A stretch of 39,779 nucleotides of DNA, from positions 1 through 39,779 of IMG/VR virus record IMGVR_UViG_3300047560_002121. One strand, 5' to 3'. The notes beneath the pieces are model-generated. The model had not been told where the DNA came from, did not search any database, and saw only the letters and a program-made list of their open reading frames with translations. Shown piece after piece: positions 1 through 26,295 of this stretch (position 1 is the first letter of the stretch; every line of letters starts with the position of its first letter). Both the position numbers and the translations under genes were made by a program. The DNA comes from a virus.

Positions 1-1188
1 AATCATTTCGATTGCGGAGTCATCGTGATGAACACCTTGGTCGAATTGCATGTCCGAGAAGATAACCAATGTTTGTGGCATTTCTGCTTGTGGCACACTG
101 TTATCTACCGCTGTCTTAAGGATCAAATCAAACGCCTTGTTCAAGTCGGTGTTAGCGACTTCACCAGTGTTCATTTGGTCAATCTTTTGATTGATGTTAC
201 CCTTAAGGTTAACCAACTTAGGTGTACGGCTGAAAGTCAAGAATGTGTCCTTGAACTTACCCTTGTTCTTGTCAGCAAAGTACAAACCTAGAGAGATTGC
301 AACATCCAAACAAGACAAGCCTGTGTTCTTACCTGCGGCGCAAGTCATAGAACCTGACGAGTCAACCATTGGCAACACGTTAGCGTCACCGATGAAGTTT
401 GGCAATGCATCCCATTGCGCTTGCAGTGCGTCCAACTCAGTCTTAGACATTGTTGTACGGCTGTACGAATTGATACGACCCTTAAGGACGTCATATGGGT
501 ACACTGCACCTGCATTAATCTTCACACCTGCTTCGCCCTTAACGAGCTTAGCCACATAGTCTGCATAAGAAGTACCATTACGAGTAAAAGCCTTCTTGTA
601 ACGAGCATGTGCCAATGAAGGAACATGTGAGTAGTTGATTGAATCCCAGTCCTTAGCACACATTTGTGTTTCCACAACGTTAGTAAGCGCAACTAGGCTC
701 TTACGATATTGCTTAGGAGTCATTCCGAAGAATTCACGGATTTCACGGGCAACTTCACCCTTACGTGGTGTCCACTTAGCTGCCAAACCATTACGAGCAC
801 GGAGTGCATCGCCAAGCATTGTGTATGCTTGTGTCTTTAGAGGCTTGGACTTAAACACTAGCAAATCGTCATAACGACCGATTTCTGGGACCTTCACCAA
901 TAGACGGCTAGCGTCTTCTGGAGAAGTGTTTTCCAAGTGTGTCAACACTTGACGGAACAGTTCACGTTCACCTGAACCACCACGAACGTCACGTGCCCAT
1001 TGGACGATACGCAACGCTAGATCGGAGTTTTCAACGTATGCCGCTGTAAACGCAGGGATAATGTTCTTACCACGACTTGCGCCGATGTTATAAAACAAAT
1101 CCACACAGGCGTTTGCTGTGGACTTACGAGCCTTCATACCGTTAGCGGTACGAGCTTCTTGGTTCTTAATTGCTTCTACAAATTGCAT
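1..1188 (-). CDS. DUF2828 / Ro60(TROVE)-like vWA protein, C-terminus cut by window edge
   Basis: Open frame of 396 codons with no stop before base 1. The start at 1188 has a good AAAGGAGA site. Motifs seen: a GGSGERELFR helix near residues 70-79, a YSHVPSLAHARY-type motif near 186-197, and a vWA MIDAS DSSGS near 276-280 followed by M. This order (helical RNA-binding-type module, then vWA) is that of DUF2828 proteins and resembles Ro60/TROVE proteins, which bind Y RNAs and misfolded small RNAs. Role here is inferred: a phage RNA chaperone or RNA-repair factor. Its own mRNA leader (1189-1289) contains a copy of the repeated RNA element that frames the permuted tRNAs, so autoregulation or ligand binding is plausible. 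A sigma70 promoter lies upstream at 1296-1324. Confidence 0.8.
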   Translation of the reverse strand, partial: MQFVEAIKNQEARTANGMKARKSTANACVDLFYNIGASRGKNIIPAFTAAYVENSDLALRIVQWARDVRGGSGERELFRQVLTHLENTSPEDASRLLVKVPEIGRYDDLLVFKSKPLKTQAYTMLGDALRARNGLAAKWTPRKGEVAREIREFFGMTPKQYRKSLVALTNVVETQMCAKDWDSINYSHVPSLAHARYKKAFTRNGTSYADYVAKLVKGEAGVKINAGAVYPYDVLKGRINSYSRTTMSKTELDALQAQWDALPNFIGDANVLPMVDSSGSMTCAAGKNTGLSCLDVAISLGLYFADKNKGKFKDTFLTFSRTPKLVNLKGNINQKIDQMNTGEVANTDLNKAFDLILKTAVDNSVPQAEMPQTLVIFSDMQFDQGVHHDDSAIEMI

Positions 1189-1216: not shown

Positions 1217-1270
1217 AGGATGCGCTTTTTTACTGATATGAATAGTAATAAAGTTTGCTGAAAGCATCCT
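1217..1270 (-). ncRNA. Repeated AGGAT/ATCCT RNA element, short form (copy A)
   Basis: A 7-bp terminal stem AGGATGC/GCATCCT encloses CAGCAAAC on the 5' side and AAAAAAGC on the 3' side. The insert can form an anticodon-arm-like hairpin with loop TTCATAT (CAU in the anticodon position). No tRNA body is present. It lies within the predicted 5' leader of the Ro60-like gene, ending about 29 nt before the start codon. It could be a protein-binding leader or a small stable RNA released from the leader. Confidence 0.7.
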
Positions 1271-16399: not shown

Positions 16400-16407
16400 A
16401 TGAATCA

Positions 16408-16723: not shown

Positions 16724-16758
16724 AGCCCTGAACTTAACAGGGTTCATGTGATGTTTCA

Positions 16759-16789: not shown

Positions 16790-16798
16790 GAAAGACAT

Positions 16799-16827
16799 AT
16801 TGTATCATGCCTTTGATTTATTGTCAA
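16799..16827 (-). promoter_or_regulatory. Sigma70 promoter
   Basis: TTGACA (16822-16827), 17 nt, TACAAT (16799-16804). The spacer begins ATAAATC, as at 23908 and near-identically at 16980. The -35 overlaps the stop codon of a leader peptide. Confidence 0.85.
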
Positions 16828-16880
16828 GCGTTTTCAACTATTTCCTTCACTAGAACGTATCCTAGTGTTTTCTTATTCAT
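16824..16880 (-). CDS. Putative 18-aa leader peptide
   Basis: MNKKTLGYVLVKEIVENA, with GGGAG upstream of the ATG at 16880. It follows boxA 2 and its TGA lies within the -35 of the next promoter. Could couple translation to promoter use or be a small stable peptide. Confidence 0.4.
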   Translation of the reverse strand: MNKKTLGYVLVKEIVENA

Positions 16881-16927
16881 TGAACTCCCTTAACTAGCGA
16901 GGGCAACTTTCGTCCAAACGCTTAAAC

Positions 16928-16967
16928 TTTTAAAGAACTCAGTGATTAGCAAGATTGCTTTATCACT
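16928..16967 (-). promoter_or_regulatory. boxB/boxA-like antitermination leader 2
   Basis: Hairpin AGTGAT..ATCACT with inner AGCAA/TTGCT, then GTTCTTTAAAA, immediately after the promoter at 16980-17008. Same order as leader 1. Confidence 0.55.
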
Positions 16968-16979
16968 TTCAATACATGT

Positions 16980-17008
16980 AGTATAACACCGGATCGATTT
17001 ATTGTCAA
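16980..17008 (-). promoter_or_regulatory. Sigma70 promoter
   Basis: TTGACA (17003-17008), 17 nt, TATACT (16980-16985), consensus spacing. Confidence 0.85.
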
Positions 17009-17045
17009 TAGTTTTTGAAAATAAATTTTCTAGTACTTTTGTTTC

Positions 17046-17120
17046 TGGTCCGGGGTACAGGAATCGAACCTGTATTGACTGCTTAGAAGGCAGCTGTATT
17101 ATCCATTATACTAACCCCAG
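17046..17120 (-). tRNA. tRNA-Arg(UCU)
   Basis: Acceptor CTGGGGT/ACCCCGG, anticodon loop CTTCTAA, encoded CCA. Confidence 0.94.
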
Positions 17121-17127
17121 AAATTCT

Positions 17128-17319
17128 TTAGGCTAGTGATTGTCTCAATACTGCTAGTTCCGCGTCAGTGAGGAATGCTTCAAACTTTGTTTGTTGATAG
17201 TCTGGCTCTCGTGAGCCATCGTATGTAGTGAAAATACGAACGTGATTGTTATTCGTACCTACATGAATCTTTTTAGTCTCACAAAAAACTTTGTGACCAC
17301 CATTGTCTGCAACTAACAT
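17128..17319 (-). CDS. Hypothetical protein, 63 aa
   Basis: Start at 17319 chosen because AAAGGAAAC precedes it; the longer frame runs into tRNA-Asn. Begins MLVADNGGHKVFCETKKIHV and ends DAELAVLRQSLA. Beta strands then a helix; unknown family. Confidence 0.7.
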   Translation of the reverse strand: MLVADNGGHKVFCETKKIHVGTNNNHVRIFTTYDGSREPDYQQTKFEAFLTDAELAVLRQSLA

Positions 17320-17353
17320 ATTGTTTCCTTTGAAAAAGTTGTAATGTACTCTG

Positions 17354-17425
17354 CTCCCCAACCTGGGGTCGAACCAGGGACCAACAGATTAACAGTCTGC
17401 TGCTCTACCTCTGAGCTATCGGGGA
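17354..17425 (-). tRNA. tRNA-Asn(GUU)
   Basis: Acceptor TCCCCGA/TTGGGGA, anticodon loop CTGTTAA, discriminator G. CCA is not encoded, so a CCA-adding enzyme is needed. Second Asn gene at 22459. Confidence 0.93.
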
Positions 17426-17448
17426 ATAGAGTACACTACAACGATGAT

Positions 17449-17523
17449 TGGTGCCCCAGGTTAGAATCGAACTAACTACCTACCGCTTACAAGGCGGGTG
17501 CTCTACCAGTGAGCTACAAGGGC
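17449..17523 (-). tRNA. tRNA-Thr(UGU)
   Basis: Acceptor GCCCTTG with CTGGGGC (one mismatch), anticodon loop CTTGTAA, encoded CCA. Confidence 0.93.
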
Positions 17524-17559
17524 AATTTCAATAATTGATTGCTCAACTATTTAGATAAG

Positions 17560-17588
17560 ATTATAGCACCGAGATAATTTATTGTCAA
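17560..17588 (-). promoter_or_regulatory. Sigma70 promoter
   Basis: TTGACA (17583-17588), 17 nt, TATAAT (17560-17565), reading into tRNA-Thr, tRNA-Asn and onward. Confidence 0.88.
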
Positions 17589-17607
17589 CTATCTCGGTGA
17601 CCTCTTT

Positions 17608-18168
17608 CTAAGAAAGCAAGATTCGTGAATGCTTAGGAACACCTGCAAGCAAGTAATCCATTTGGTCAGCACGAATGTTACGGTTCTGTAGAATCATGTT
17701 TTCGAAGTGGTTAGGTTCGTAAGGAACATACAACAATTCTAGGCGTGCTTCTTTCAAAGTCTTTGCGCCCTTCTTTGCGTTACATTCTTTACATGCAGTA
17801 ACCACGTTCATCCAAACGTTTTCGCCACCTTTACTCACTGGGTGAATATGGTCGCGGCTTAGATGGTTGTAGTTAGCAAAGTGACCACCGCAGTAAGCGC
17901 ATACATGCCGGTCCCGACCGAACAATGTTCGGTTAGTCAATGCAACTTGTGCATGACGGAATGGGTTGAAGGCACGACCCTTAATAGCAATGATACTTGG
18001 TGTTTCTAGGTAACTTTGTGTACCGTCTTTTTGAAATCCACCACGATACTTACCAATTACATCACCCATACTCCATGCGACGGAGTCGGTTGCTTGATAA
18101 CTGATTGCGTCATCTAGTGAAATCCACTGCCGGGGAGTCCCCGAAATATCTAATGCTAGAACTGCCAT
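17608..18168 (-). CDS. HNH endonuclease, 186 aa
   Basis: HNH core near residues 85-135: CAYCG, then DHIHPVSKGGENVWMNVV, then CKECNAKKG. The two CXXC pairs bind a structural zinc and the DH/N residues form the ββα-metal nuclease centre. An N-terminal 85-residue domain (MAVLALDISGTPRQWISL) matches that of free-standing bacterial and phage HNH proteins. May act in genome packaging, host DNA degradation or homing. Own promoter at 18212-18240. Confidence 0.93.
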   Translation of the reverse strand: MAVLALDISGTPRQWISLDDAISYQATDSVAWSMGDVIGKYRGGFQKDGTQSYLETPSIIAIKGRAFNPFRHAQVALTNRTLFGRDRHVCAYCGGHFANYNHLSRDHIHPVSKGGENVWMNVVTACKECNAKKGAKTLKEARLELLYVPYEPNHFENMILQNRNIRADQMDYLLAGVPKHSRILLS

Positions 18169-18211
18169 GCTTACTCCTTTGTTGATGTCCTACATCTTAT
18201 TTAGATCCTTT

Positions 18212-18240
18212 ATTATATGACAGAAATCATTATCTGTCAA
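18212..18240 (-). promoter_or_regulatory. Sigma70 promoter of the HNH gene
   Basis: TTGACA (18235-18240), 17 nt, TATAAT (18212-18217); spacer contains the palindromic arms GACAGA/TCTGTC. Confidence 0.88.
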
Positions 18241-18243
18241 GTC

Positions 18244-18318
18244 TGGTCTCACCGGACAGACTTGAACTGTCATCTATTCTTTAGGAGAGAATCGTTCTAT
18301 CCCTTGAACTACAGCGAG
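18244..18318 (-). tRNA. tRNA-Arg(CCU), overlapping the 3' end of a CDS
   Basis: Acceptor CTCGCTG with CGGTGAG, anticodon stem ATTCT/AGAAT with loop CTCCTAA, encoded CCA. The 5' 45 nt overlap the same-strand CDS ending at 18274, whose stop codon lies in the anticodon stem. Confidence 0.9.
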
Positions 18319-19041
18319 GTTTGAATTTGCTTGATAGAATCTATCAATAGCAACCTGTTTCAAACTATTGTAAATGAATACTAATTCATTATAGTTTGTT
18401 ACCAACTTCTCATAGTCATAGTTTGTTTCAACGTTATAACTAGAAGTGTTGTTAAAATTTTGTTCTATGTAGTTTGGGATATCATCATGGTCGATGTGTT
18501 CCCACTCCATCGCATTCTGTGTTAGATACTCTTTCAAGTGCATAGAGATTAGGTCAGCATATATCAACATAAATGCACGATTGTATGCATCCTCTGTAAA
18601 TTTTCTAGGCTCAATTTCTTTTTCTAACTCATCCACTGATTGGTACGTATACTTGTTCAATGCATGTGCGATGAACAAACTACTAACAGCATCGGCGACA
18701 TTCGCACGTGCTGTAAAATAAATTTTGTCGTATTGCTTGAAGTTATACAAGTCAAAGTTCAACAACTCACCATTCTTCGGTATCAACGACAATTGAGTAG
18801 GATGTAATCTCACTACTCCTTCGTTAATCTTTTCAAGTTGTTGAAGTTTTATCTCAGTTACCTTTTTATAGATAGAAGGTTCCTTCTCGTACACACCAGT
18901 GAATGACCATCTTCCGTTTGTCAATTCATTGTGCAACTTATCTAAGTCAGCCCCTATGATAGGTATGTCGTGATACAAGCAAAGTACATCACGTAAGTGA
19001 CTAGACCGTGACCTTGGGTGACCGATGATGCAAATTTTCAT
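18274..19041 (-). CDS. P-loop sulfotransferase-like protein, 255 aa
   Basis: Start taken at 19041 (MKICIIGHPRSRSSHLRDV), 5 nt after a GATAAATA box; a longer frame has no support. The GHPRSRSSHL motif near residues 7-16 resembles the PAPS 5'-phosphosulfate loop, and DKIYFTARANVADAVSSLF near 124-142 resembles the 3'-phosphate-binding segment. Would transfer sulfate to a glycan or small molecule; not proven. Its last 15 codons overlap tRNA-Arg(CCU). Confidence 0.7.
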   Translation of the reverse strand: MKICIIGHPRSRSSHLRDVLCLYHDIPIIGADLDKLHNELTNGRWSFTGVYEKEPSIYKKVTEIKLQQLEKINEGVVRLHPTQLSLIPKNGELLNFDLYNFKQYDKIYFTARANVADAVSSLFIAHALNKYTYQSVDELEKEIEPRKFTEDAYNRAFMLIYADLISMHLKEYLTQNAMEWEHIDHDDIPNYIEQNFNNTSSYNVETNYDYEKLVTNYNELVFIYNSLKQVAIDRFYQANSNLAVVQGIERFSPKE

Positions 19042-19046
19042 CAAAA

Positions 19047-19054
19047 TATTTATC
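19047..19054 (-). promoter_or_regulatory. Late promoter box GATAAATA, leaderless
   Basis: Ends 5 nt before the ATG at 19041 and abuts the 3' end of the RNase P RNA. Confidence 0.65.
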
Positions 19055-19355
19055 AACACCCCATAGCCGGGATTCTGTTTTATCCTAACATTAATCTTTG
19101 CCACAACCCGAATCAATAGCGCAAGTGTTGCCTGACTCTGTTTGTGTTGCTTGTTATATCACGGTAGTTTAACGATAATGTATAGTGAAATAACCTCTGC
19201 CGTGATTACGCCGATATCTAACGCATCTGCGGACCTCATGTGAATACTTGTCTAGAATTTTCTTCTTTCCAGGCTACTTCACTATACACTATCTCCTACA
19301 CGCACTTGCTACAAGTCCCGAACTTCCTCTGTTGCCAGCGTTAGGTCGGATGTTG
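19054..19355 (-). ncRNA. rnpB: RNase P RNA (class A), phage-encoded
   Basis: Conserved 5' block CAGAGGAAGTTCGGGAC (family GAGGAAAGUCCGGGC), middle block GTTAAACTACC..AACAAGCAACACAAA (family GGUAAACUCC..GAGCAAGGCCAAAU) and 3' block AGATTAATG..ACAGAATCCCGGCTAT (family AGAUGAAUG..ACAGAACCCGGCUUAU). P1 pairs CAACATCC with GGGTGTTG. Two long helices, ATCACGG/CCGTGAT and a 16-position stem at 19174-19189 with 19278-19293, cross as a pseudoknot, as RNase P helices do. About 300 nt, shorter than the E. coli RNA. It cleaves 5' leaders of tRNA precursors. Confidence 0.9.
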
Positions 19356-19360
19356 AAATT

Positions 19361-19438
19361 TGGTACCCCACCTCCGAGTCGAACGGAGAGAACTCTTCCT
19401 TTTGAGAGAAGCGACTTTGCCAATTTGTCCAGTGGGGC
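19361..19438 (-). tRNA. tRNA-Leu(CAA), short variable loop
   Basis: Acceptor GCCCCAC with GTGGGGT, anticodon stem CTTCT/GGAAG with loop CTCAAAA, encoded CCA. The variable region is too short for a normal Leu class II arm. Confidence 0.82.
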
Positions 19439-19444
19439 ATTGTA

Positions 19445-19520
19445 TGGTGGCGTAAGCTGGACTCGAACCAGCAACACACGAATTTTCAGTCCGCTGCTCT
19501 ACCATTGGAGCTACTACGCC
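19445..19520 (-). tRNA. tRNA-Phe(GAA)
   Basis: Acceptor GGCGTAG/TTACGCC, anticodon loop CTGAAAA, encoded CCA. Confidence 0.95.
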
Positions 19521-19526
19521 ATATCT

Positions 19527-19602
19527 TGGGGTGTCACACGGGGAACGATCCCGTACTACCAGTTTCACAGACTAGGGTGCGAACCTCTACACTAGTGACA
19601 CC
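19527..19602 (-). tRNA. tRNA-His(GUG)
   Basis: Acceptor GTGTCAC/GTGACAC with an extra G at -1 opposite discriminator C, the His identity pair. Anticodon loop CTGTGAA, encoded CCA. Confidence 0.93.
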
Positions 19603-19664
19603 ATATAAACTTTCGTACATGAAACTTATGTACATTCATTCGTAAATATTCAAAAGGAACATCT

Positions 19665-19943
19665 ATGAATAACTCTGACCAACAACTACTACGCCGTTAC
19701 ATCAATGTAATCAATGAAGCGGTAAGTGCTATTGAAGAAAAGTGGGGTACTCCTACAGTAGTATCACCACAAGAAAAAGGTAAGTATCACGGCAAGAGTA
19801 AAGCCGAGTTACTTAGTGCATACAACAAACTAAAGAAAACAGGTCCACATCACAAAGGATCACCTGAGTATGGTCGTATGCGTGAACTTGCATTCGCTAT
19901 CCGCGCTAAGGGCGGATGGGGTAAAGTACAGGACACTATATGA
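19665..19943 (+). CDS. Small protein with capsid-targeting-like N-terminus, 92 aa
   Basis: AAAGGAAC precedes the ATG; a GTAAATA box lies at 19642-19648. The N-terminus LLRRYINVINEAVSAIEEKW resembles the T4 capsid-targeting sequences of internal head proteins, cut by the prohead protease after I/L-x-E; here INE before A near residues 16-18. The remainder is basic (KGKYHGKSKAELLSAYNKLK). May be packaged in the head; inference. Confidence 0.65.
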   Translation: MNNSDQQLLRRYINVINEAVSAIEEKWGTPTVVSPQEKGKYHGKSKAELLSAYNKLKKTGPHHKGSPEYGRMRELAFAIRAKGGWGKVQDTI

Positions 19944-20158
19944 CTTCCACTGTTATGAGAAATTTTCTCAATGTTCTCAATGAAACACAAATTTCATACA
20001 GTAACAAGATACTTAAAAAATCTGCCAACTACATTGATTACTCAATGAGTGGCGAACGTTGCAAAAACTGTGAACACTTTATTAATCCCAGTAGATGCGA
20101 AATCGTTGAAGGTGCAATCAACGCTAATGGTTGGTGCAAGTACTTCAAAGAAGATTGA
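19940..20158 (+). CDS. Cys-rich small protein with capsid-targeting-like N-terminus, 72 aa
   Basis: Overlaps the previous stop (ATGA). N-terminus VMRNFLNVLNETQ repeats the targeting-like motif with LNE as possible cleavage site. C-terminal part has four Cys in GERCKNCEHFINPSRCEIVE and GWCKYF, the spacing seen in HiPIP-like small iron-sulfur proteins. Metal binding is inferred. Ends 1 nt before tRNA-Pro on the other strand. Confidence 0.7.
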   Translation: MTSTVMRNFLNVLNETQISYSNKILKKSANYIDYSMSGERCKNCEHFINPSRCEIVEGAINANGWCKYFKED

Positions 20159-20159
20159 T

Positions 20160-20235
20160 TGGTCTCCCTACGAGGATTTGAACCTCGACCTCCTGACCCC
20201 AAATCAGGAACGCTACCAGATTACGCTATAGAGAG
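20160..20235 (-). tRNA. tRNA-Pro(UGG), second copy
   Basis: Acceptor CTCTCTA with TAGGGAG, anticodon stem CCTGA/TCAGG with loop TTTGGGG, encoded CCA. Sequence differs from the 10496 gene. Confidence 0.92.
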
Positions 20236-20245
20236 ATAAAAATAC

Positions 20246-20307
20246 AGGATAGCTTTTGTCGCTAGACAACCAAAAAGTTTAGCTAAGAGATTTGCTGTAA
20301 CTATCCT
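20246..20307 (-). ncRNA. Repeated RNA element, short form (copy E)
   Basis: AGGATAG/CTATCCT stem with CAGCAAAT on the 5' side and ACAAAAG on the 3' side. Insert has a TTGTC-TAGC-GACAA hairpin; no anticodon-like 7-nt loop seen. Confidence 0.65.
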
Positions 20308-20312
20308 AAAAC

Positions 20313-20431
20313 TGGTGGAGCCCCGAGGATTCGAACCTCGATCTCGTCCTTGACATGGAATGAAGTGTAGTGCTGTTCGTATCCTATAACAGGATCGCTT
20401 TCTACGTGTGCTACCATTACACCAAAGCCCC
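20313..20431 (-). tRNA. tRNA interrupted by the repeated RNA element (copy J)
   Basis: Normal order with acceptor GGGGCTT/GGGCTCC, D-arm GTGTAATGGTAGCAC, T-loop TTCGAAT and CCA, but about 45 nt are inserted after the D-arm. The insert holds AGAAAG-CGATCCT-GTTAT-AGGATACG-AACAGC, the same two strands that flank permuted tRNAs, here joined as a hairpin. Removing it between CGT and CC restores a perfect anticodon stem CGTCC/GGACG with loop ATGTCAA (GUC). Behaves like an intron-containing tRNA. Confidence 0.75.
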
Positions 20432-20440
20432 ATTAATTGT

Positions 20441-20533
20441 TGGCGGAAAGCAGAGGAGTCGAACCCCATCCCTTTGTCAGAGAACCGGGTTTTCAAGGCC
20501 CGTCGCAGGACCATCCCCGCTGCATTACTTTCC
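20441..20533 (-). tRNA. tRNA-Ser(UGA), second copy with extended acceptor
   Basis: Class II with anticodon loop CTTGAAA. The acceptor can pair over 8 bp (GGAAAGTA/TGCTTTCC), a tRNA-Sec feature, but the anticodon is UGA, not UCA. Encoded CCA. Confidence 0.85.
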
Positions 20534-20539
20534 ATTGTT

Positions 20540-20614
20540 TGGAGGGTCGTACAAGATTCGAACTTGTGACTGCTGGTTTCGAAGACCAGAACTCTTCCAC
20601 TGAGTTAACGACCC
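20540..20614 (-). tRNA. tRNA-Arg(UCG)
   Basis: Acceptor GGGTCGT/ACGACCC, anticodon stem CTGGT/ACCAG with loop CTTCGAA, encoded CCA. Confidence 0.94.
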
Positions 20615-20670
20615 ATATATAGGTTTTTGAGAGACCAGCTATCTTTCTCAAGGACTCACTGGCTTGTCTC

Positions 20671-20752
20671 GATTGAGAGAGTTTAACGACCTTGTGTAGC
20701 TACTGGCGTGTCAGTCACAAGAATAGGGACCTAGCGCACAAGGGACTCAATC
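20671..20752 (-). ncRNA. Nested stem element between tRNAs
   Basis: GATTGAG/CTCAATC (20671-20752) encloses CCTTGTG/CACAAGG (20690-20743), which encloses TGTG..CACA. Adjacent GAGACCAG..CTGG..GTCTC pairing lies at 20630-20670. No ORF or promoter. Confidence 0.45.
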
Positions 20753-20774
20753 TCATCGTCTATCTCAAAATCTG

Positions 20775-20872
20775 TTTGTCATTCCGGGTTCGTACCGTAC
20801 CTGAACCTTGTTCCATCACCCGAAGGATTTTATAATGGCGATCCCGTGCATTCTCATTACACTAATGACAAA
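20775..20872 (-). ncRNA. tRNA-like cloverleaf lacking a normal T-arm
   Basis: TTTGTCATT/AATGACAAA forms a 9-bp acceptor-like stem. Inside, in order: a D-arm-like GTGTAATGAGAATGCAC, a GGAT/ATCC arm with a large loop, and a GGTTC/GAACC arm without the TTCRA loop. Could be a decayed tRNA or mimic. Confidence 0.4.
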
Positions 20873-20881
20873 ACTTTTAGG

Positions 20882-20947
20882 CCCTTGCGAGAGGAATCGA
20901 ACCTCTACTACTGCGCGCCGTGTGTGCTCCCTTTACACCACGCAAGG
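20882..20947 (-). tRNA. Short tRNA with defective anticodon arm
   Basis: Good acceptor CCTTGCG/CGCAAGG, D-arm GTGTAAAGGGAGCAC and T-arm AGAGG-TTCGATT-CCTCT, discriminator G. Only 17 nt lie between D-arm and T-arm where about 22 are needed, so no 5-bp/7-nt anticodon arm fits. Anticodon not assignable; 3' CCT instead of CCA. Confidence 0.55.
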
Positions 20948-20954
20948 ACAAAAC

Positions 20955-21028
20955 TGGTGCTCCATCGAGGATTCGAACCCCAATTGCCGGACTACAAAAC
21001 CGGTGTCTTTCCATTAAACGAATAGAGC
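20955..21028 (-). tRNA. tRNA-Thr(UGU)-like, second copy
   Basis: Acceptor GCTCTAT/ATGGAGC, anticodon stem CCGG/CCGG with loop TTTGTAG and a T-T mismatch at 31-39, encoded CCA. Identity is provisional. Confidence 0.75.
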
Positions 21029-21038
21029 ATAAAATAAC

Positions 21039-21148
21039 AGGATACATTCTTTACGAATGCCTTTACCATTTGGCTAATCACGCATGGAGCGTAATACTGG
21101 AGTCGAACCAGTAATCTATCGTTTGATAGGGTTTGCTGTATGTATCCT
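21039..21148 (-). tRNA. Circularly permuted tRNA with encoded CCA in the repeated element (copy F)
   Basis: Minus-strand order: AGGATACA, CAGCAAAC, anticodon region CTATCAAACGATAG, T-arm ACTGG-TTCGACT-CCAGT, 3' acceptor ATTACGC, UCCA, a 1-nt linker, 5' acceptor GCGTGAT, D-arm (GCC..GGC with GG loop), GTAAAGAA, TGTATCCT. The acceptor strands pair at all 7 positions (one G-U). The encoded discriminator plus CCA directly before the 5' end shows that both mature termini are made by processing the short loop. Anticodon not assignable with confidence. Confidence 0.85.
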
Positions 21149-21153
21149 AAAAC

Positions 21154-21228
21154 TGGCGATCCCGCGGGGAATCGAACCCCGATATCCGACTAGACAGGCC
21201 GGTATAATAACCACTATATGACGAGACC
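21154..21228 (-). tRNA. tRNA-Asp(GUC), second copy
   Basis: Acceptor GGTCTCG with CGGGATC, anticodon stem CCGGC/GTCGG with loop CTGTCTA, encoded CCA. Confidence 0.92.
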
Positions 21229-21236
21229 ATTTAACT

Positions 21237-21313
21237 TGGTGCTTCAACCTGGACTCGAACCAGGGACCTACGCCTTATCAAGACGGTGCTACTACCAACT
21301 GAGCTATTGAAGC
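21237..21313 (-). tRNA. tRNA-Ile(GAU)
   Basis: Acceptor GCTTCAA/TTGAAGC, anticodon loop TTGATAA, encoded CCA. Confidence 0.93.
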
Positions 21314-21318
21314 ATATA

Positions 21319-21392
21319 TGGTACCCAGTGCAAGAATCGAACTTGCGTCTATCGATTATCGGTCGATTGCTCTTCCGTTGAGCTAACCGGGT
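21319..21392 (-). tRNA. tRNA with GAU anticodon and C33
   Basis: Acceptor ACCCGGT with ACTGGGT, anticodon stem ATCGA/TCGAT, loop CCGATAA. Position 33 is C where U is nearly universal. Encoded CCA. Confidence 0.85.
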
Positions 21393-21399
21393 AAATGTT

Positions 21400-21474
21400 T
21401 GGTGGATGTAGCTAGATTCGAACTAGCGATAGGTACCGTATGAAGATACTGCATTACCACTTTGCTATACATCC
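21400..21474 (-). tRNA. tRNA-Met or tRNA-Ile2 (CAU)
   Basis: Acceptor GGATGTA with TACATCC, anticodon stem GTATC/GGTAC with loop TTCATAC, encoded CCA. Third normal CAU gene; a lysidine-type Ile2 is possible. Confidence 0.88.
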
Positions 21475-21480
21475 ATTGAT

Positions 21481-21554
21481 TGGTGCGGGGTAAGGGAGTC
21501 GAACCCTTGACTAAACGTTGGCAACGTTTGATTTTACCGTTAAACTAACCACGC
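21481..21554 (-). tRNA. tRNA-Gly(GCC), second copy
   Basis: Acceptor GCGTGGT with ACCCCGC (one mismatch), anticodon stem AAACG/CGTTT with loop TTGCCAA, encoded CCA. Confidence 0.92.
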
Positions 21555-21560
21555 ATTGAT

Positions 21561-21638
21561 TGGAATGTCGGGTGAGATTTGAACTCACGGATTTACGGAT
21601 TTGCAATCCGTTGCATTGGACCACTCTGCCACCGACAC
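21561..21638 (-). tRNA. tRNA-Cys(GCA), second copy
   Basis: Acceptor GTGTCGG with CCGACAT, anticodon stem ACGGA/TCCGT with loop TTGCAAA, discriminator U, encoded CCA. Confidence 0.92.
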
Positions 21639-21649
21639 ACATTTCTTCT

Positions 21650-21723
21650 TGGTGCTCCTTACTGGTTACGATCCAGTGTTTCTACATTACCAATGTAGTG
21701 TAATACCATTATACTAAAAGAGC
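21650..21723 (-). tRNA. tRNA-Thr(GGU)
   Basis: Acceptor GCTCTTT with AAGGAGC, anticodon stem CTACA/TGTAG with loop TTGGTAA. T-loop is ATCGTAA instead of TTCGANN. Encoded 3' end is CC followed by A. Confidence 0.9.
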
Positions 21724-21728
21724 AAAAC

Positions 21729-21783
21729 AGGATTCGCTTTTTTTTCATCCAAAGAAAAATTTTATGTTTGCTGAAAGAATCCT
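21729..21783 (-). ncRNA. Repeated RNA element, short form (copy G)
   Basis: AGGATTC/GAATCCT stem, CAGCAAAC and AAAAAAGC strands. The insert contains TTTTC-TTTGGAT-GAAAA, an anticodon-arm-like hairpin with UGG (Pro) in the anticodon position. Confidence 0.68.
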
Positions 21784-21788
21784 AAAAC

Positions 21789-21865
21789 TGGCGCCACCGA
21801 AGAGATTCGAACTCCTGACTCCTTCGTTCGTAGCGAAGTACTCTAATCCACTGAGTTACGGCGGC
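21789..21865 (-). tRNA. tRNA-Arg(ACG)
   Basis: Acceptor GCCGCCG with CGGTGGC, anticodon loop CTACGAA, encoded CCA. A34 would need deamination to inosine. Confidence 0.94.
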
Positions 21866-21874
21866 ATAACTTTC

Positions 21875-21950
21875 TGGCACCCCCTGATGGACTCGAACCA
21901 CCGAATGTCGGAATCAAAATCCGATGCCTTACCAACTTGGCGAAGAGGGT
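21875..21950 (-). tRNA. tRNA-Gln(UUG)
   Basis: Acceptor ACCCTCT with AGGGGGT, anticodon CGGA-TTTTGAT-TCCG, discriminator G, encoded CCA. Confidence 0.93.
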
Positions 21951-21960
21951 ATAAAATAAC

Positions 21961-22021
21961 AGGATCGTTTTTTACGGTTTAGATTAAAAGTCTAATGTAT
22001 TATGGTTGCTGAACCGATCCT
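21961..22021 (-). ncRNA. Repeated RNA element, short form (copy H)
   Basis: AGGATCG/CGATCCT stem, CAGCAACC and TAAAAAA strands. The insert holds a perfect 5-bp/7-nt hairpin TTAGA-CTTTTAA-TCTAA, identical in loop to tRNA-Lys(UUU). Confidence 0.68.
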
Positions 22022-22026
22022 AAACT

Positions 22027-22104
22027 TGGTGCAGTCAGTGGACTCGAACCACTGCGGGAAACTAGTATGCGGAGCTATTGCCCCTACCCCATGCCATTAC
22101 TGCA
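22027..22104 (-). tRNA. Divergent tRNA, anticodon uncertain
   Basis: Acceptor TGCAGTA with GACTGCA (one mismatch), D-region GGCATGGGGTAGGGGC, T-arm AGTGG-TTCGAGT-CCACT and CCA. The middle (TAG..CTA around CTCCGCATA) does not form a standard anticodon arm; CCG is one reading. Discriminator base seems missing. Confidence 0.55.
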
Positions 22105-22109
22105 TATCT

Positions 22110-22226
22110 TGGTGGGCTAGTTGAGAGTTGAACTCACTAATCTGTTGTGTAAGAACAGCATGAAAACCGTTTCATGTCAAGCCTATAAATTTCTGAGTCG
22201 CATTTGATTACACGGTTACTACGCCC
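22110..22226 (-). tRNA. tRNA-Val(UAC) with an insertion before the anticodon arm
   Basis: 3' part is standard: anticodon stem CTGTT/AACAG with loop CTTACAC, T-loop TTCAACT, CCA. The acceptor pairs as GGGC-(bulged G)-TAG with CTAGCCC. About 55 extra nt between acceptor/D region and anticodon arm contain the hairpin CATGAAA/TTTCATG and AACCGT/ACGGTT pairing. No consensus AGGAT element in the insert. D-arm not convincing. Confidence 0.55.
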
Positions 22227-22286
22227 GTCCGTGACGTTACGGTTGCAAACTTACCTGCAGGACGCATTTGCAACTATCTTACATTC
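22227..22286 (-). ncRNA. Hairpin between tRNAs
   Basis: GTTGCAAA/TTTGCAAC, 8 bp perfect, with a loop of about 17 nt, between tRNA-Val-like and tRNA-Ala. Confidence 0.35.
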
Positions 22287-22361
22287 TGGTGGAAGCCGAG
22301 GGAGTTGAACCCTTCTAGACAGCAATCTTGCAAGGATCACCCGTAGCCCGCTACTGCCCCC
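22287..22361 (-). tRNA. tRNA-Ala(UGC)-like, second copy
   Basis: Acceptor GGGGGCA with GGCTTCC (wobbles), anticodon loop CTTGCAA on a weak stem TGATC/GATTG, CCA. Related in both ends to the 22842 gene. Confidence 0.7.
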
Positions 22362-22372
22362 ATTAAATTATT

Positions 22373-22447
22373 TGGTGGACCGTGAGAGAATCGAACTCTC
22401 ACCTAGGACGTGCAAAGCCCCCGTGCTCCCATTATCACTAACAGCCC
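22373..22447 (-). tRNA. tRNA-Ala(UGC)-like, third copy
   Basis: Acceptor GGGCTGT/ACGGTCC, anticodon stem GGGGC/GTCCT with loop TTTGCAC, encoded CCA. Confidence 0.82.
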
Positions 22448-22458
22448 ATTAAATTGTT

Positions 22459-22537
22459 TGGCTCCGTGACCTGGGATCGAACCAGGCTCATTTCTGATTA
22501 ACAGTCAGACGCCTACACCTTGCTTGCTCTCACGGAA
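22459..22537 (-). tRNA. tRNA-Asn(GUU), second copy
   Basis: Acceptor TCCGTGA/TCACGGA, anticodon CTGA-CTGTTAA-TCAG, discriminator G, encoded CCA. Confidence 0.92.
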
Positions 22538-22746
22538 TAAATTCGTTCCAGAATACACGGCGTTAAGAATAGGTACCCTAGCTTAACTTCTGTCCGGTGG
22601 CAGCTTTTTCCGCTAACAATGATTTTCATACCCCTACTGGACCGACTACTCTTCCGTTCCGTCACATTCTAAGTGTGAAGACAAGTCCTTTGCGGCTCTT
22701 GCTCGGTTTCCGTCTACTCATACTACTAATCATCATCTTAGTATCT
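22538..22746 (-). ncRNA. Structured gap of about 210 nt
   Basis: GTTAAG..CTTAAC around AGG/CCT, TCACA..TGTGA and ACTACT..AGTA pairings; no tRNA T-loop, ORF or promoter recognised. Possibly another folded RNA. Confidence 0.35.
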
Positions 22747-22835
22747 TGGTGAAGTGTGATAGAATCGAACTACTTGGCTACCACCCTGCTTAACAAAGCC
22801 TACCGGGTTACAGCCGGCAACAGGGAACACACTCC
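22747..22835 (-). tRNA. tRNA-Tyr(GUA)-like without a D-arm
   Basis: Acceptor GGAGTGT with ACACTTC, discriminator A and CCA. Anticodon stem GCCGG/CCGGT with loop CTGTAAC (GUA). Only about 10 nt (GTTCCCTGTT) separate acceptor and anticodon stems, so no D-arm can form; CCCTG can instead pair with CAGGG in the long variable region, a tertiary-like substitute. Confidence 0.6.
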
Positions 22836-22841
22836 ATAACT

Positions 22842-22916
22842 TGGTGGAGGCCGAGGGAGTCGAACCCTTCAAACATAACCCTCACAGGTTAGTGCGGATC
22901 CGCCGCTACTGCCCCC
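22842..22916 (-). tRNA. Divergent tRNA related to the 22287 gene
   Basis: Acceptor GGGGGCA with GGCCTCC, T-loop TTCGACT, CCA. The anticodon hairpin AACC/GGTT has a loop of about 6 nt (TGTGAG), so the anticodon is not assignable; GUG is one reading. Confidence 0.55.
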
Positions 22917-22923
22917 AAACATT

Positions 22924-22998
22924 TGGTACTCAGTACGGGAATCGAACCCGTCTTTACAACTTGAAAGGCTGTCGTCCTTACCGATAGACGAACTGAGT
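22924..22998 (-). tRNA. tRNA-Glu(UUC), second copy
   Basis: Acceptor ACTCAGT with ACTGAGT, anticodon loop CTTTCAA, encoded CCA. Confidence 0.92.
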
Positions 22999-23006
22999 AT
23001 AATACT

Positions 23007-23083
23007 TGGCAGGGGTTATCAGATTCGAACTGATGATGACGATTTCAAAGACCGTTGCCTTAGGCCAACTAGGCGAAACCCCA
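23007..23083 (-). tRNA. tRNA-Gln(UUG), second copy
   Basis: Acceptor TGGGGTT with AACCCCT (first pair U-U), anticodon stem ACGGT/ATCGT with loop CTTTGAA, discriminator G, encoded CCA. First tRNA of the array in transcription order. Confidence 0.9.
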
Positions 23084-23090
23084 ACAAAAT

Positions 23091-23200
23091 TGCTATTCAT
23101 TAGTATCTAAGCAATACAACTTCGGATGTGTATTGTGTTGTTCATCTTAGTCTACTAATGAATAGCATCTTGCGATGCTATGTCAGGATCATGTCCTGAC
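23091..23200 (-). ncRNA. Structured RNA with 15-bp perfect terminal stem
   Basis: TGCTATTCATTAGTA pairs perfectly with TACTAATGAATAGCA (23091-23167), enclosing CTAAG/CTTAG and CAATACA/TGTATTG. Two further hairpins follow: GCATC/GATGC and GTCAGGA/TCCTGAC (23182-23200). Sits upstream of the first tRNA in transcription order. Confidence 0.6.
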
Positions 23201-23307
23201 CAGTAATTTATACTCTGCTGTTATCGCCAGCATTTCATCCTACTGTCCGCCCATTCGATACACTTAACGCTGTATTCCGGCTCTCGTTGCCTATTCACGT
23301 TTATACT
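23201..23307. other. Short gap, nothing assigned
   Basis: About 100 nt between the hairpin RNA and the 55-aa gene; no ORF, promoter or strong hairpin seen. Confidence 0.4.
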
Positions 23308-23475
23308 TCAAGATTCTAAAGTACGTTTAACTTTCATCTTGTTGCGTAGCTGAAACCTTTCGTTTCTTTCTACTTTCTCTCGGATCAACTTTTGAAATTG
23401 ATCCTCTGATAAACAAAACTCTGTAGTAAAACGTATCTCTTGCATCTTCAATTTAATATCTGTTTTACTTTTCAA
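23308..23475 (-). CDS. Small basic helical protein, 55 aa
   Basis: Start assigned to the TTG at 23475 because AAGGAAG precedes it; an internal ATG at 23445 would give 45 aa and has no ribosome site. Sequence QEIRFTTEFCLSEDQFQKLI then REKVERNERFQLRNKMK, ending VKRTLES. A basic coiled helix, possibly RNA-binding. Lies downstream of the terminator/attenuator at 23493-23528. Confidence 0.55.
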   Translation of the reverse strand: MKSKTDIKLKMQEIRFTTEFCLSEDQFQKLIREKVERNERFQLRNKMKVKRTLES

Positions 23476-23492
23476 ATTACTTCCTTACAAAC

Positions 23493-23528
23493 AAAAACCC
23501 CTGAGACTTTTTAGTTTCCCAGGGGTTT
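23493..23528 (-). terminator. Terminator or attenuator between two small genes
   Basis: On the minus strand AAACCCCTG..CAGGGGTTTTT followed by GTTTG. The 5' arm (23521-23532) can pair instead with 23574-23585 in the upstream gene, giving a mutually exclusive antiterminator hairpin. Confidence 0.75.
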
Positions 23529-23552
23529 CATAAAACTTTTAGAGTTGTTACT

Positions 23553-23729
23553 TTAAGCGTAACCATCTCCTTCTATGAAACCCCTGCAATCTAATCCTTG
23601 TTCTGTGCCACGGATACTAATGCTAGGTGTATTATAACCCTCAAATGCCCATGACATAGCGGCTGACACTGGTGCTATCGTAGCACATTGTCTCGCTTGT
23701 TTCGGCAGTTGATGATTAAATTTTGTCAT
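23553..23729 (-). CDS. Small protein, 58 aa
   Basis: Begins MTKFNHQLPKQARQCATIAP, then VSAAMSWAFEGYNTPSISIR, ending with an EGDGYA tail. Behind promoter 23806-23834, about 70 nt of leader. Its 3' part encodes one arm of the attenuator hairpin. Function unknown. Confidence 0.65.
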   Translation of the reverse strand: MTKFNHQLPKQARQCATIAPVSAAMSWAFEGYNTPSISIRGTEQGLDCRGFIEGDGYA

Positions 23730-23805
23730 AGTGTTTTATTTAGTCCTGGTTTAAAATTTCTTCAATTTAACAGTGTTTTTTTCACTTTTTTGTTTCGATG
23801 CGTGT

Positions 23806-23834
23806 ATTGTATAACAGGTTTGATTAATTGTCAA
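23806..23834 (-). promoter_or_regulatory. Sigma70 promoter, array head
   Basis: TTGACA (23829-23834), 17 nt, TACAAT (23806-23811). Confidence 0.87.
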
Positions 23835-23882
23835 CAACTTTTTCAATCTTGTTACCCAAAACACACAACTTTTGTTGTTCCT

Positions 23883-23936
23883 ACTGATTTCTCAGTTCAT
23901 GTTGTGAAGTATAGCAGGGTTTTGATTTATTGTCAA
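23883..23936 (-). promoter_or_regulatory. Upstream sigma70 promoter with boxB-like hairpin
   Basis: TTGACA (23931-23936), 17 nt, TATACT (23908-23913); then hairpin ACTGA-GAAA-TCAGT (23883-23896) with the same GAAA loop as at 16774-16789. No good boxA follows. Tandem with the 23806 promoter. Confidence 0.8.
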
Positions 23937-24014
23937 CACCTTTCTTTACCCGTTTTCTTTAGAACTTTCGTTTTCAGTAGCGGGTGCTATATTTAACAGA
24001 CGCTAGTATAGCAC

Positions 24015-24026: not shown

Positions 24027-25124
24027 ATGTCAACCACTTTTTGCAAATACTTGACCAATCAGTACAGATTCGTATATGGGGTTCTTCAACCCTGCTGTTG
24101 GTACACTAAGACACAAGACCTTAACGCTAGCCCCGAAGAGATTGAAGCATACAAACAAGAGATGTATGCGATTGATGACTGGGTTCCTGAATGTAACTTC
24201 TGCAAGCATAGGGAGGATCAGGGTATGTACAGTCCTAGGCAGCAAGTTAACGCTACGTTTGAAGACGCAGAGCCCGGTGACGGAATCAGCTTAGAGTTTC
24301 AGATTGATAGAGAATGCAACGGTGGGTGCTTGATTTGCGGATCCTGGAACTCAACTACTTGGAGCCAATACGAAAAGAACACTACTAAGAAAGTCATTGA
24401 GATTAGAAATAACAATGACGATGTTGAGTTATGGCTACAGCAAGTATACAAGACAGTGACGTTGTACAAGGTTAAGCGCATCACGTTCCTCGGTGGAGAA
24501 CCCTTGAGAAGCGACACACATCTACGTTTGCTCAAAGAAATCGAAAAGGTTCGTGACCTTTCTGACATTCACTTGTGCTACATAACCAACGGAAGTGCTA
24601 GACCTAGCGAGGCTATGATTGACTTCTGGAAGCAATTCAAGCATGTGAACTTTAACTTAAGTATAGATGGCATCGGTGAGCACTTTAACTATCTACGTTG
24701 GCCACTGCAGTGGCATCAAGTTGAAGACAACCTTCGCTATCTAGTAGACTTAAAGGTTCCTACATTCAGTTTCACTGGTAGCTATACGCTCACCCCGTTT
24801 AGTGCATACTACCATGACAAATACGATGGTTGGGCTAGAGACTTCTTTCAAGGTACCGGTATAGATTATAGACTGATGTTCAACAAGCCGTATGATGCGA
24901 ACGGTGTGATGAGTTTGGCTGCTATTCCACCTATCATTCGTGCTCTAATGTTTAAGAAATATAAAGACTATCCTGCATACAACGGGCATACAGTGATGAA
25001 GTGCATCCCACCTCATGATCCCGAAGCATATAAAAAGTTCATGGAGTATATCGAATACCATGACCAACATAGAAAACTAAACTGGCGAGAAGTCTTCCCA
25101 GAGATACAACAATACTTTAAGTGA
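24027..25124 (+). CDS. Radical SAM protein, 365 aa
   Basis: CX3CX2C at Cys97, 101, 104 (CNGGCLIC) and FLGGEPL near 154-160. N-terminal CCW (23-25) and CNFC (56-59) may ligate an auxiliary iron-sulfur cluster. The C-terminal half has the NFNLSIDGIGEHFNYLRWP strand typical of phage twitch-type radical SAM proteins. Paralogous to the next gene, with 1 nt between them. Substrate unknown. Confidence 0.92.
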   Translation: MSTTFCKYLTNQYRFVYGVLQPCCWYTKTQDLNASPEEIEAYKQEMYAIDDWVPECNFCKHREDQGMYSPRQQVNATFEDAEPGDGISLEFQIDRECNGGCLICGSWNSTTWSQYEKNTTKKVIEIRNNNDDVELWLQQVYKTVTLYKVKRITFLGGEPLRSDTHLRLLKEIEKVRDLSDIHLCYITNGSARPSEAMIDFWKQFKHVNFNLSIDGIGEHFNYLRWPLQWHQVEDNLRYLVDLKVPTFSFTGSYTLTPFSAYYHDKYDGWARDFFQGTGIDYRLMFNKPYDANGVMSLAAIPPIIRALMFKKYKDYPAYNGHTVMKCIPPHDPEAYKKFMEYIEYHDQHRKLNWREVFPEIQQYFK

Positions 25125-25125
25125 T

Positions 25126-26295
25126 ATGGCTAATCAATTTTGCAGACAACTAAGCAACGGTTTCAAAATCAACGTGCAAGAAGATAAACTCTTATGGAGT
25201 CCATGCTGTTTCTATAGTAAGAAAACAGACATGAGTAATGTAGAAGAATATCAAAAGGCACGTGAGTATGCAAGTAGTGCCACTGGCTGGTTGCCTGAGT
25301 GCGAGAGTTGTAGAAAGATGGAAGAATCAGGTGTAGAGTTACTGCATCCTCGATTGAATGCTAACCACATGATTACTGCTGATAGTGTCGATGGCGACTG
25401 TGTTAACTTAGAGGTGAGCTTTGATACAAAGTGTAATGCAGCTTGTTTGAGTTGCGGTAGTTACTGTAGTACGACATGGGCTAAGTTTGACAAGAAGCAT
25501 GGACTCAATCAGCACATCAGTCCTAAGATTGTTAAGCTAGAAAATGTATTTCAACGTAAGCTGGCAGAGGTTCAGTACAAGGTTAAACTTGACGCAGAGG
25601 ACAGTGACCTAAGTGATATCTTGTTTAAGCAACTAATCAAAACTGTTCCACTAGATAAGTTACAAACTATCTTCATCATGGGCGGTGAACCCTTCTATAC
25701 AAAATCACATGTTAAGTTGTTGCGTCACTTGAAAGAGGTGCATCCTGACTTAAGCAAAGTCAGCATTCGTTATCAGAGTAACACTAGCATCTACCCCAGT
25801 GATGAAGTACTAGAGTTATGGAAAGATTACAACTACATTGTATACGGTGCTAGTATTGATGGTATCGGTGAACGCTTTAACTACTTGCGTTGGCCCTTGA
25901 AGTGGCATAGAAGTGAAGTAGTGTTGAAGCGATTAATAAATGAAACTAACGTGAAGTTGCACGTGAACTGCACCATTAGCCCGTTGAATGTCTTGTACGT
26001 TGATGAGTTAGAGAACTGGCTGATTGACAATATTGATAAATCTAGATTCTCTAGCCAACGTCAACTAGTAAGACCTAACGCTTGCTTGGGTGATATGGAT
26101 TTACGTTTTACTAACCAAAGACTCAGAGATAAAGTCTATACCAAATACGGTGAAGACCACAACATCAGTAAGTTGTTTAGCAACATGGAAATATATGACA
26201 ACCCCGGTAATATGTTCCGTTACATAGAGCATATGGATAAACTGCGCCGTTTAGATTGGCGCAAGACTTTCCCTGATGTAGTTGATTGTTATTAA
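25126..26295 (+). CDS. Radical SAM protein, 389 aa, paralogue of its neighbour
   Basis: CX3CX2C at Cys103, 107, 110 (CNAACLSC) and MGGEPF; N-terminal CC (27-28) and CESC (59-62) as in the 24027 protein, and the matching GASIDGIGERFNYLRWPLKW segment. A tandem duplication that has diverged. Overlaps the convergent 26292 gene by 4 nt. Confidence 0.92.
   Translation: MANQFCRQLSNGFKINVQEDKLLWSPCCFYSKKTDMSNVEEYQKAREYASSATGWLPECESCRKMEESGVELLHPRLNANHMITADSVDGDCVNLEVSFDTKCNAACLSCGSYCSTTWAKFDKKHGLNQHISPKIVKLENVFQRKLAEVQYKVKLDAEDSDLSDILFKQLIKTVPLDKLQTIFIMGGEPFYTKSHVKLLRHLKEVHPDLSKVSIRYQSNTSIYPSDEVLELWKDYNYIVYGASIDGIGERFNYLRWPLKWHRSEVVLKRLINETNVKLHVNCTISPLNVLYVDELENWLIDNIDKSRFSSQRQLVRPNACLGDMDLRFTNQRLRDKVYTKYGEDHNISKLFSNMEIYDNPGNMFRYIEHMDKLRRLDWRKTFPDVVDCY

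Follow-up and report, generated by a model that had tools for sequence, protein, structure and literature searches.

A probable Y-RNA-type tRNA mimic in phages that encode DUF2828, a protein with a predicted Ro60-like fold

A permuted tRNA body between paired ends

We analysed a 39,779-nt stretch of viral DNA (IMG/VR virus record IMGVR_UViG_3300047560_002121, positions 1 to 39,779; hereafter the window), with emphasis on a 110-nt element on its minus strand, designated F. F is probably a phage noncoding RNA of the Y-RNA type, a tRNA mimic of a Ro60-like ribonucleoprotein (RNP), rather than a rearranged gene for a working tRNA, because it belongs to a widespread family of tRNA look-alikes in phages that carry a gene for a predicted Ro60-like RNA-binding protein. 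Y RNAs are ligands of Ro60 proteins, and the YrlA type of bacterial Y RNA is a tRNA mimic.

Read along the minus strand from 21148 to 21039, F begins with the strand AGGAUACAU, the motif CAGCAA, the hairpin CUAUC-AAAC-GAUAG and a T arm, and continues with AUUACGC, UCCAU, GCGUGAU, a D arm, UUCGU, AAAG and the strand AUGUAUCCU. The outer strands AGGAUACAU and AUGUAUCCU pair with each other (7-9 bp), and the acceptor strands form seven of seven pairs. The features of F are as follows.

21039..21148, minus strand: element F, Y-RNA-like scaffold with a permuted tRNA mimic (110 nt)
21142..21148, minus strand: 5' strand of the end-pairing stem P1, AGGAUAC; the pairing reaches 9 bp
21133..21138, minus strand: conserved CAGCAA motif behind a 3-nt spacer
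21116..21129, minus strand: hairpin CUAUC-AAAC-GAUAG where an anticodon arm would sit
21096..21112, minus strand: T arm ACUGG-UUCGACU-CCAGU
21089..21095, minus strand: 3' acceptor strand AUUACGC
21084..21088, minus strand: linker UCCAU between the acceptor strands; CCA is 21085-21087
21077..21083, minus strand: 5' acceptor strand GCGUGAU
21059..21076, minus strand: positions 8-9 (UA) and D arm GCC..GGC
21036..21045, minus strand: 3' strand of P1 (GUAUCCU) and conserved GUU; the family ends in ...CUGU

The 5' strand of P1 was assigned from the sequence and the P1 pairing of the family, the T and D arms from the sequence and homologues, the linker from the sequence and the linkers of 105 copies, and the acceptor strands from the sequence. 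The order and register of these parts agree with a preliminary description of F as a permuted tRNA with CCA encoded one base before its own 5' end: the CCA is in register (positions 74-76), a single base separates it from the 5' G, and when the inner part of F was dinucleotide-shuffled 20,000 times, 2 shuffles satisfied the rule for permuted tRNAs, as F does. The acceptor, T stem and D arm were all found again in homologues, where the hairpin stem varies with its pairing retained (ACAUC/GAUGU, CUAAC/GUUAG). That such a gene is unlikely to be debris was also borne out, as the form and the context of the element are conserved across many phages. F is real and not debris, a rearranged tRNA body without a usable anticodon loop: its hairpin loop is damaged (AAAC versus AUAAAC in the homologous loci L016 and L025), and joining the halves gives no intact anticodon loop. 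This damage, the paired ends and the membership of F in a large scaffold family are additions to the preliminary description.

The design of F is common to the loci L016, L025, L043, L059, L069, L075, L091 and L200. L016 and L025 retain CAU in the loop (hairpin AUAAAC), and F, L059, L075 and L091 are shortened to AAAC. The acceptor linker is UUCAU in five of these eight relatives (L016, L025, L059, L075, L200) and ACAU, GCAU or GCUAU in the remaining three. UCCAU was found in F and in L057, a member of another subgroup, and is one substitution away from the common pentaloop. Across all permuted copies, NCCA is in register in 10 of 105, versus 1.6 expected (1/64; p 6e-6); the acceptor end is therefore not random, though NCCA is not the rule, and it retains some trace of tRNA ancestry or function. 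The earlier proposal that the CCA reflects selection for a functional 3' end is weak, because 95 of the 105 permuted copies lack NCCA and the nearest relatives carry other linkers, and a 5-nt loop between CCA and 5' end would leave no room for a normal leader. F is better read otherwise than as a tRNA gene whose 3' end is under selection. The linkers are most simply read as descended from tRNA genes that encoded CCA, where closing of the loop was tolerated; a minority with longer linkers behind ACCA (L105, L127) could be a different case. By eye, Stenotrophomonas phage DLP_6 (KU682439 113176-113318; L226 4522-4664) has a permuted tRNA in which ACCA is complete and the linker to the 5' half is longer.

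The preliminary description further stated that the phage encodes RNase P RNA. We found no Rfam match to this RNA in the window at gathering thresholds and none at 7000-24000 at E up to 1. Likewise, Rfam gave no match to an intron or a ribozyme, neither in the window nor, with E up to 1, at 7000-24000; a self-splicing or ribozyme module was rejected on this ground, with splicing kept as a rival explanation.

A scaffold family with interchangeable payloads

The scaffold of F consists of a 7-bp end-pairing stem, N3, CAGCAA, an A-rich strand and a terminal ...CUGU. The window contains seven instances of AGGAT-N5-CAGCA versus 0.43 expected, and F is one of about seven scaffold copies there. Scans of IMG/VR for a long and a short form each returned at least 120 stretches, so that family totals are lower bounds, and 380 elements with a paired end stem were extracted from the scanned loci and the window. 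When the stem sequence was left free, 545 elements were detected in 2.0 Mb versus 11 in the reversed sequence, with AGGAU, AGGUU, AGAAU, AGAGU and other stem types. The stem is 7 bp long in 217 of 342 copies, and every Watson-Crick type is present at positions 6 and 7. P1 pairing survives base changes across the family; its covariation is biased since the rows were selected for pairing, and the reversed-sequence scan is the fairer control. CCA lies within 15 nt upstream of 235 of the 342 copies (those just after tRNA genes), and Aeromonas phage LAh_6 has scaffold copies also in an array without annotated tRNAs. No description of the family was found in the literature searched; earlier mention is possible in the main Y RNA review and in further Y RNA papers outside this search.

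Bacterial chromosomes were considered as a source and rejected: a first genome pattern gave no matches and a second gave five stretches. Two of these, L218 and L221, are tRNA arrays that sit on short contigs of metagenome-assembled genomes and are phage-derived by their look; the other three lack tRNA genes and are coding sequence by eye.

The segment enclosed by the scaffold, hereafter the payload, falls into several classes. Among short copies (<80 nt), 116 of 199 contain a stem of 5 bp that closes a 7-nt loop with U33, versus a mean of 9.2 and a maximum of 17 in 60 shuffles, and 7 nt is the sole peak of loop length (133 copies; 23-48 at other lengths). With a minimum stem of 4 bp, 143 anticodon arms were recognised, led by UUU (30), UGU (19), UCU (12), GGA (12) and UGA (10); in 128 of them the anticodon ends in A36 or U36. 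Permuted tRNAs make up 60 of 181 longer copies under the strict rule, and when the rule left the stem sequence free, 247 sequences yielded 105. An anticodon arm stands beside T in 40 permuted copies, and in 29 of these contiguous linker bases already pair with 42-43, so that the arm is complete without splicing; positions 27-28 pair with 42-43 in 19 of the 40 copies, versus a shuffled mean of 6.4.

In a third form the tRNA has normal order and the module is closed to a hairpin inside the anticodon stem (20314-20431 and other loci). Because the closed-module rule mistakenly included ordinary tRNAs among its 73 matches, we used only the 17 cases with GNNA loops. The open and closed forms are two circular permutations of one chimera of tRNA and handle. 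Normal-order tRNAs with a closed module at about 28/29 of the anticodon stem were noted at 20314-20431 (minus strand), L005, L013, L018, L045 and L049, and further at L067, L069, L081, L085, L105 and L125; some of them (L013, L049) have 8-nt anticodon loops by eye. The annotated suppressor tRNA (TTA) of Vibrio phage PhiImVa-1 (ON042477 20388-20502; L223 1731-1845) is a tRNA with a closed handle module, which makes the suppressor call doubtful.

A part of the inserts is not tRNA-like. One recurrent non-tRNA payload, GGTCAGAGATAACTTCACAGACTATC ... GTGAGTTTGGATTTCTCAC ... AAAAAGTACAAAACG, was seen at L004:2038-2151, L028, L055, L061 and others. Another, GGCCGGCCCGC..GGGGGCGTGTCGTGGGTTCGAGTCCCGGC (L008:37-138, L013, L034, L048, L120), is T-arm-like and not a simple permuted tRNA, and the payload GCUAAACUUUUGGUUGUCUAGCGACAAAA, an apparent pseudoknot (GCUA with loop UAGC), recurs between phages (20246-20307 on the minus strand and many loci).

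Association with the DUF2828 protein

Scaffold loci were traced to five isolates, the Vibrio phages PhiImVa-1, EniLVp02 and BUCT194, Aeromonas phage LAh_6 and Stenotrophomonas phage DLP_6. A DUF2828 gene is present in 36 of 39 scaffold records (31/34 metagenomic, 5/5 isolates) versus 0 of 14 control genomes, and adjoins the array in LAh_6 and BUCT194. Overall, DUF2828/PHROG 850 was found in 681 of 50,697 phage records; among the matches listed, the record names are RNA-binding, Ro-like, vWFA, DUF2828, structural or hypothetical only, and several mycobacteriophage records name it "Ro-like RNA binding protein".

In 66 loci with a full DUF2828 frame, all of them fetched through the RNA, an element lies at most 100 nt (mostly 10-30 nt) upstream of the DUF2828 start in 45, versus 4.8% for random positions. 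This count used a relaxed scan, which gave 264 elements versus 36 in the reversed sequence; 249 of the 264 share the strand of the DUF2828 gene.

The association was also approached from the protein side. A covariance model, R1, was built from 44 of 64 picked elements; the rest were left out as near-duplicates by type, as long, or as apparently coding. R1 matched 10 of 12 DUF2828 phages, which had been selected by protein search alone and are absent from the model, versus 0 of 10 DUF2828-negative phages (Fisher p 1e-4); these controls were tRNA-rich phages from two DNA searches with tRNA-array loci. Four of the five isolates traced through the RNA contributed sequences to the model (W01, W02, W03, W05) and so give no independent test. 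Other candidate partners were rejected: a TROVE-type Ro60 was present in 0 of 34 records, and of the ligases considered as a shared partner, RtcB was present in 1 and a T4-type Rnl1 in 3 of 34.

The DUF2828 structure was predicted with AlphaFold2 from 35 aligned proteins, the first being that of L016 (89% identical to the window fragment). The model (predicted local distance difference test 80, predicted template modelling score 0.79) has helical repeats followed by a vWA-like domain. Ten Foldseek matches reached E<=0.001, and every one of them is a Ro60/TROVE entry; they include Rsr (2nvo) and the Ro60 of a Thermus phage (9l5y). VIA-align superposed the model on the Ro60-RNA complex 1yvp with Z 18.4 and a root-mean-square deviation of 4.2 over 405 residues, and on 2nvo Rsr with Z 12.7; ten Ro60/TROVE entries span Z 18.4 to 12.7, and single-domain vWA entries start at 11.4. 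The predicted fold has the helical repeats and the vWA domain in the Ro60 arrangement and matches Ro60/Rsr over nearly the whole length. In contrast, identity to these proteins is about 12-16% and the TROVE Pfam model does not recognise DUF2828 proteins. A PDB sequence search with the DUF2828 profile gave no relative (one match at E 0.2), NCBIfam gave no match, Pfam added DUF7788 and, for vWA_Ro60, no more than weak matches, and the PHROGs label is RNA-binding protein.

Comparison with known RNAs

YrlA (RF02553) and F-type elements share the T arm before the D arm, an acceptor closed by a loop and ends paired in a stem, and both are encoded alongside a Ro60-type protein (here DUF2828 with its predicted Ro60-like fold, in 36/39 records). 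They differ in that the phage scaffold has a short stem with CAGCAA and no second stem, its payload is often an anticodon arm alone, and its partner is DUF2828 instead of TROVE. The YrlA model gave a full-length match at 10887-11003 of the window (36.6 bits), and the best of 34 records was L070 (49.9 bits); none of the matches reached the gathering score of 69. Counts of YrlA matches across records were not used as support, as 9 of 14 control genomes match too. YrlA in phages had already been reported (PMC7765460, citing Sim and Wolin 2018). In the part of PMC7790460 consulted, Rsr of D. radiodurans is tethered to PNPase by Y RNA, and the tRNA-like domain of YrlA is proposed to be a competitive inhibitor of an anticodon nuclease.

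The Class I RNAs of Dictyostelium offer a second comparison. The portion of PMC7919456 consulted describes them as RNAs of 42-65 nt with a short end stem, an 11-nt motif beside its 5' strand, an AAG start, a CUGU end and a variable remainder, restricted to dictyostelids and of unclear function. The phage elements share the stem, the motif position, the UUACAGCAA core (Rfam consensus of the Class I motif, CCUUACAGCAA) and the CUGU end, and the short copies also the size; the AAG start is only partly present. The Class I model (RF01414) gave full-length matches, the best with 34.5 bits (E 1.4e-5 per record), below the gathering score of 41.5. The two also differ in source (amoeba versus phage), and the likeness concerns stem, motif, ends and size. 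At E<=0.1 the model matched 8 of 12 DUF2828 phages and 0 of 10 other phages, but also 4 of 14 cellular genomes; the E-values are therefore optimistic, and homology of the phage scaffold to Class I RNA is a lead, not proven.

In the permuted tRNA genes of algae and archaea the 3' half is encoded ahead of the 5' half, and splicing yields working tRNAs. The 3' half comes first in F too, but F has no intact anticodon loop and most of its kin no CCA.

Other features of the window

The remaining scaffold copies and the associated gene in the window are as follows.

1..1188, minus strand: DUF2828 / PHROG 850 protein, cut by the contig end; Ro60-like by the predicted fold of a close full-length homologue
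1217..1270, minus strand: scaffold element upstream of the DUF2828 gene, 28 nt from its start codon
10674..10790, minus strand: scaffold with a permuted tRNA and a different P1 (AGGUUCU)
10890..11003, minus strand: scaffold with a permuted tRNA, linker without CCA; full-length sub-threshold YrlA match
20246..20307, minus strand: scaffold with the recurrent GCUA...UAGC insert (apparent pseudoknot, not tRNA)
20314..20431, minus strand: normal-order tRNA, anticodon GUC by eye, CCA encoded; closed module AUCCU-GUUAU-AGGAU-N5-CAGCA within the anticodon stem
21729..21783, minus strand: scaffold with an anticodon-arm-type stem-loop, loop UUUGGAU (UGG by eye); Class I RNA match of 32.6 bits
21961..22021, minus strand: scaffold with a bare tRNA-Lys(UUU)-type anticodon stem-loop, UUAGA-CUUUUAA-UCUAA

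ARAGORN identified 44 ordinary tRNAs at 7825-23083 (minus strand), with several anticodons present more than once. The region 20620-20880 looks structured, with tRNA-like acceptor halves by eye and no ARAGORN or Rfam call. At 24027-37252 (plus strand), six frames that match radical SAM proteins (one below the Pfam cut-off) are clustered with a gene for a glycosyltransferase-like protein.

A proposed RNP and its alternatives

We propose that the paired ends (7-9 bp), the single-stranded CAGCAA and the A-rich strand form a common handle and that the phage protein DUF2828 / PHROG 850, a Ro60-like ring by prediction, may bind it, as suggested by co-occurrence, adjacency and fold. The remainder of the RNA would be payload. 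In F this is an inside-out tRNA body whose acceptor is closed by a short loop and whose anticodon arm is replaced by the handle with the T and D arms kept, which would give an elbow and acceptor look-alike with no decoding and no free 3' end. Elsewhere in the family the payload is a bare anticodon stem-loop or another permuted tRNA, or the handle is grafted into a normal-order tRNA. A tRNA-binding factor, most plausibly a tRNA-cleaving host defence, would then meet a tRNA look-alike in each RNP, which would serve as bait or would tether the protein. We prefer a role as bait for tRNA-targeting defences, because the payloads are tRNA parts with specific anticodons and the unspliced RNAs would already show complete anticodon arms (29/40); what is known of Ro60 agrees just as well with the tether role. 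The copy just upstream of the DUF2828 coding sequence, in its 5' leader, may autoregulate that gene. The phage family fits the logic of YrlA, with another handle and a wider payload set.

Several points weigh against a Y-RNA-type mimic. F itself reaches only 17.9 bits with the YrlA model (E 0.11; gathering 69), and the phage handle is not the YrlA Ro-binding stem. Three of the 39 records (G009, G015, G019) lack DUF2828, although they may be fragments, and R1 misses two of the 12 DUF2828 phages, CCS1 and Lak-A2, where a looser motif scan gives candidates. The scaffold loci were drawn from the matches listed (at least 120 stretches per IMG/VR scan). Binding, expression and the bait function are our inferences from the computed architecture, payload classes, co-occurrence, adjacency and Ro60-like fold. 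The in-register CCA is above chance (10/105), the 27-28/42-43 pairing is also what splicing would predict, and the closed module in normal-order tRNAs is awkward for a pure bait model. Splicing accounts for the junction pairing and the closed module at least as naturally.

If these elements were permuted intron-exon tRNAs, the handle would be a tiny intron whose flanking sides are joined to give a circular precursor, which RNase P and 3' processing in the CCA loop would convert to a working tRNA. In many copies the anticodon stem is again 5 bp long once the module is taken out, and the junction pairing (19/40 versus 6.4), the closed modules in normal-order tRNAs with CCA (17 with GNNA loops) and the NCCA in register (10/105) all agree with this explanation. 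It is nevertheless unlikely: bare anticodon arms and non-tRNA payloads make poor exons, the anticodon loop of F is shortened and most linkers lack CCA, and no splicing enzyme is shared (RtcB 1/34, Rnl1 3/34). In addition, the Rfam searches of the window gave no RNase P RNA, and the record already holds 44 ordinary tRNAs.

A free RNA decoy or structural spacer of the tRNA operon, acting without the Ro60-like protein, would suit the 235 of 342 copies with CCA in the 15 nt upstream, but copies also lie upstream of DUF2828 and in the LAh_6 array without annotated tRNAs, and their occurrence tracks DUF2828, which makes this explanation quite unlikely. A decayed tRNA pseudogene produced by chance rearrangement, which the damaged anticodon loop of F might suggest, is very improbable because the design recurs, in many phages with pairing kept through changes and in two further permuted copies in the window.

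Implications

Beyond F, it is conceivable, though we hold it only tentatively, that DUF2828 phages run a modular RNP in which one handle with interchangeable tRNA parts would bait or redirect host anticodon nucleases, and that the Class I RNAs are a cellular branch with a DUF2828-type partner. As a caution for annotation, a phage tRNA call that is permuted or intron-like (for example the PhiImVa-1 suppressor tRNA) can be a tRNA mimic. If the proposed RNP exists, DUF2828/PHROG 850 would gain a function and an RNA partner, and the purpose of phage Y RNAs would become testable, with the payload anticodons pointing to likely targets. The Dictyostelium Class I RNAs would then have a possible first outside relative and a candidate class of partner proteins.
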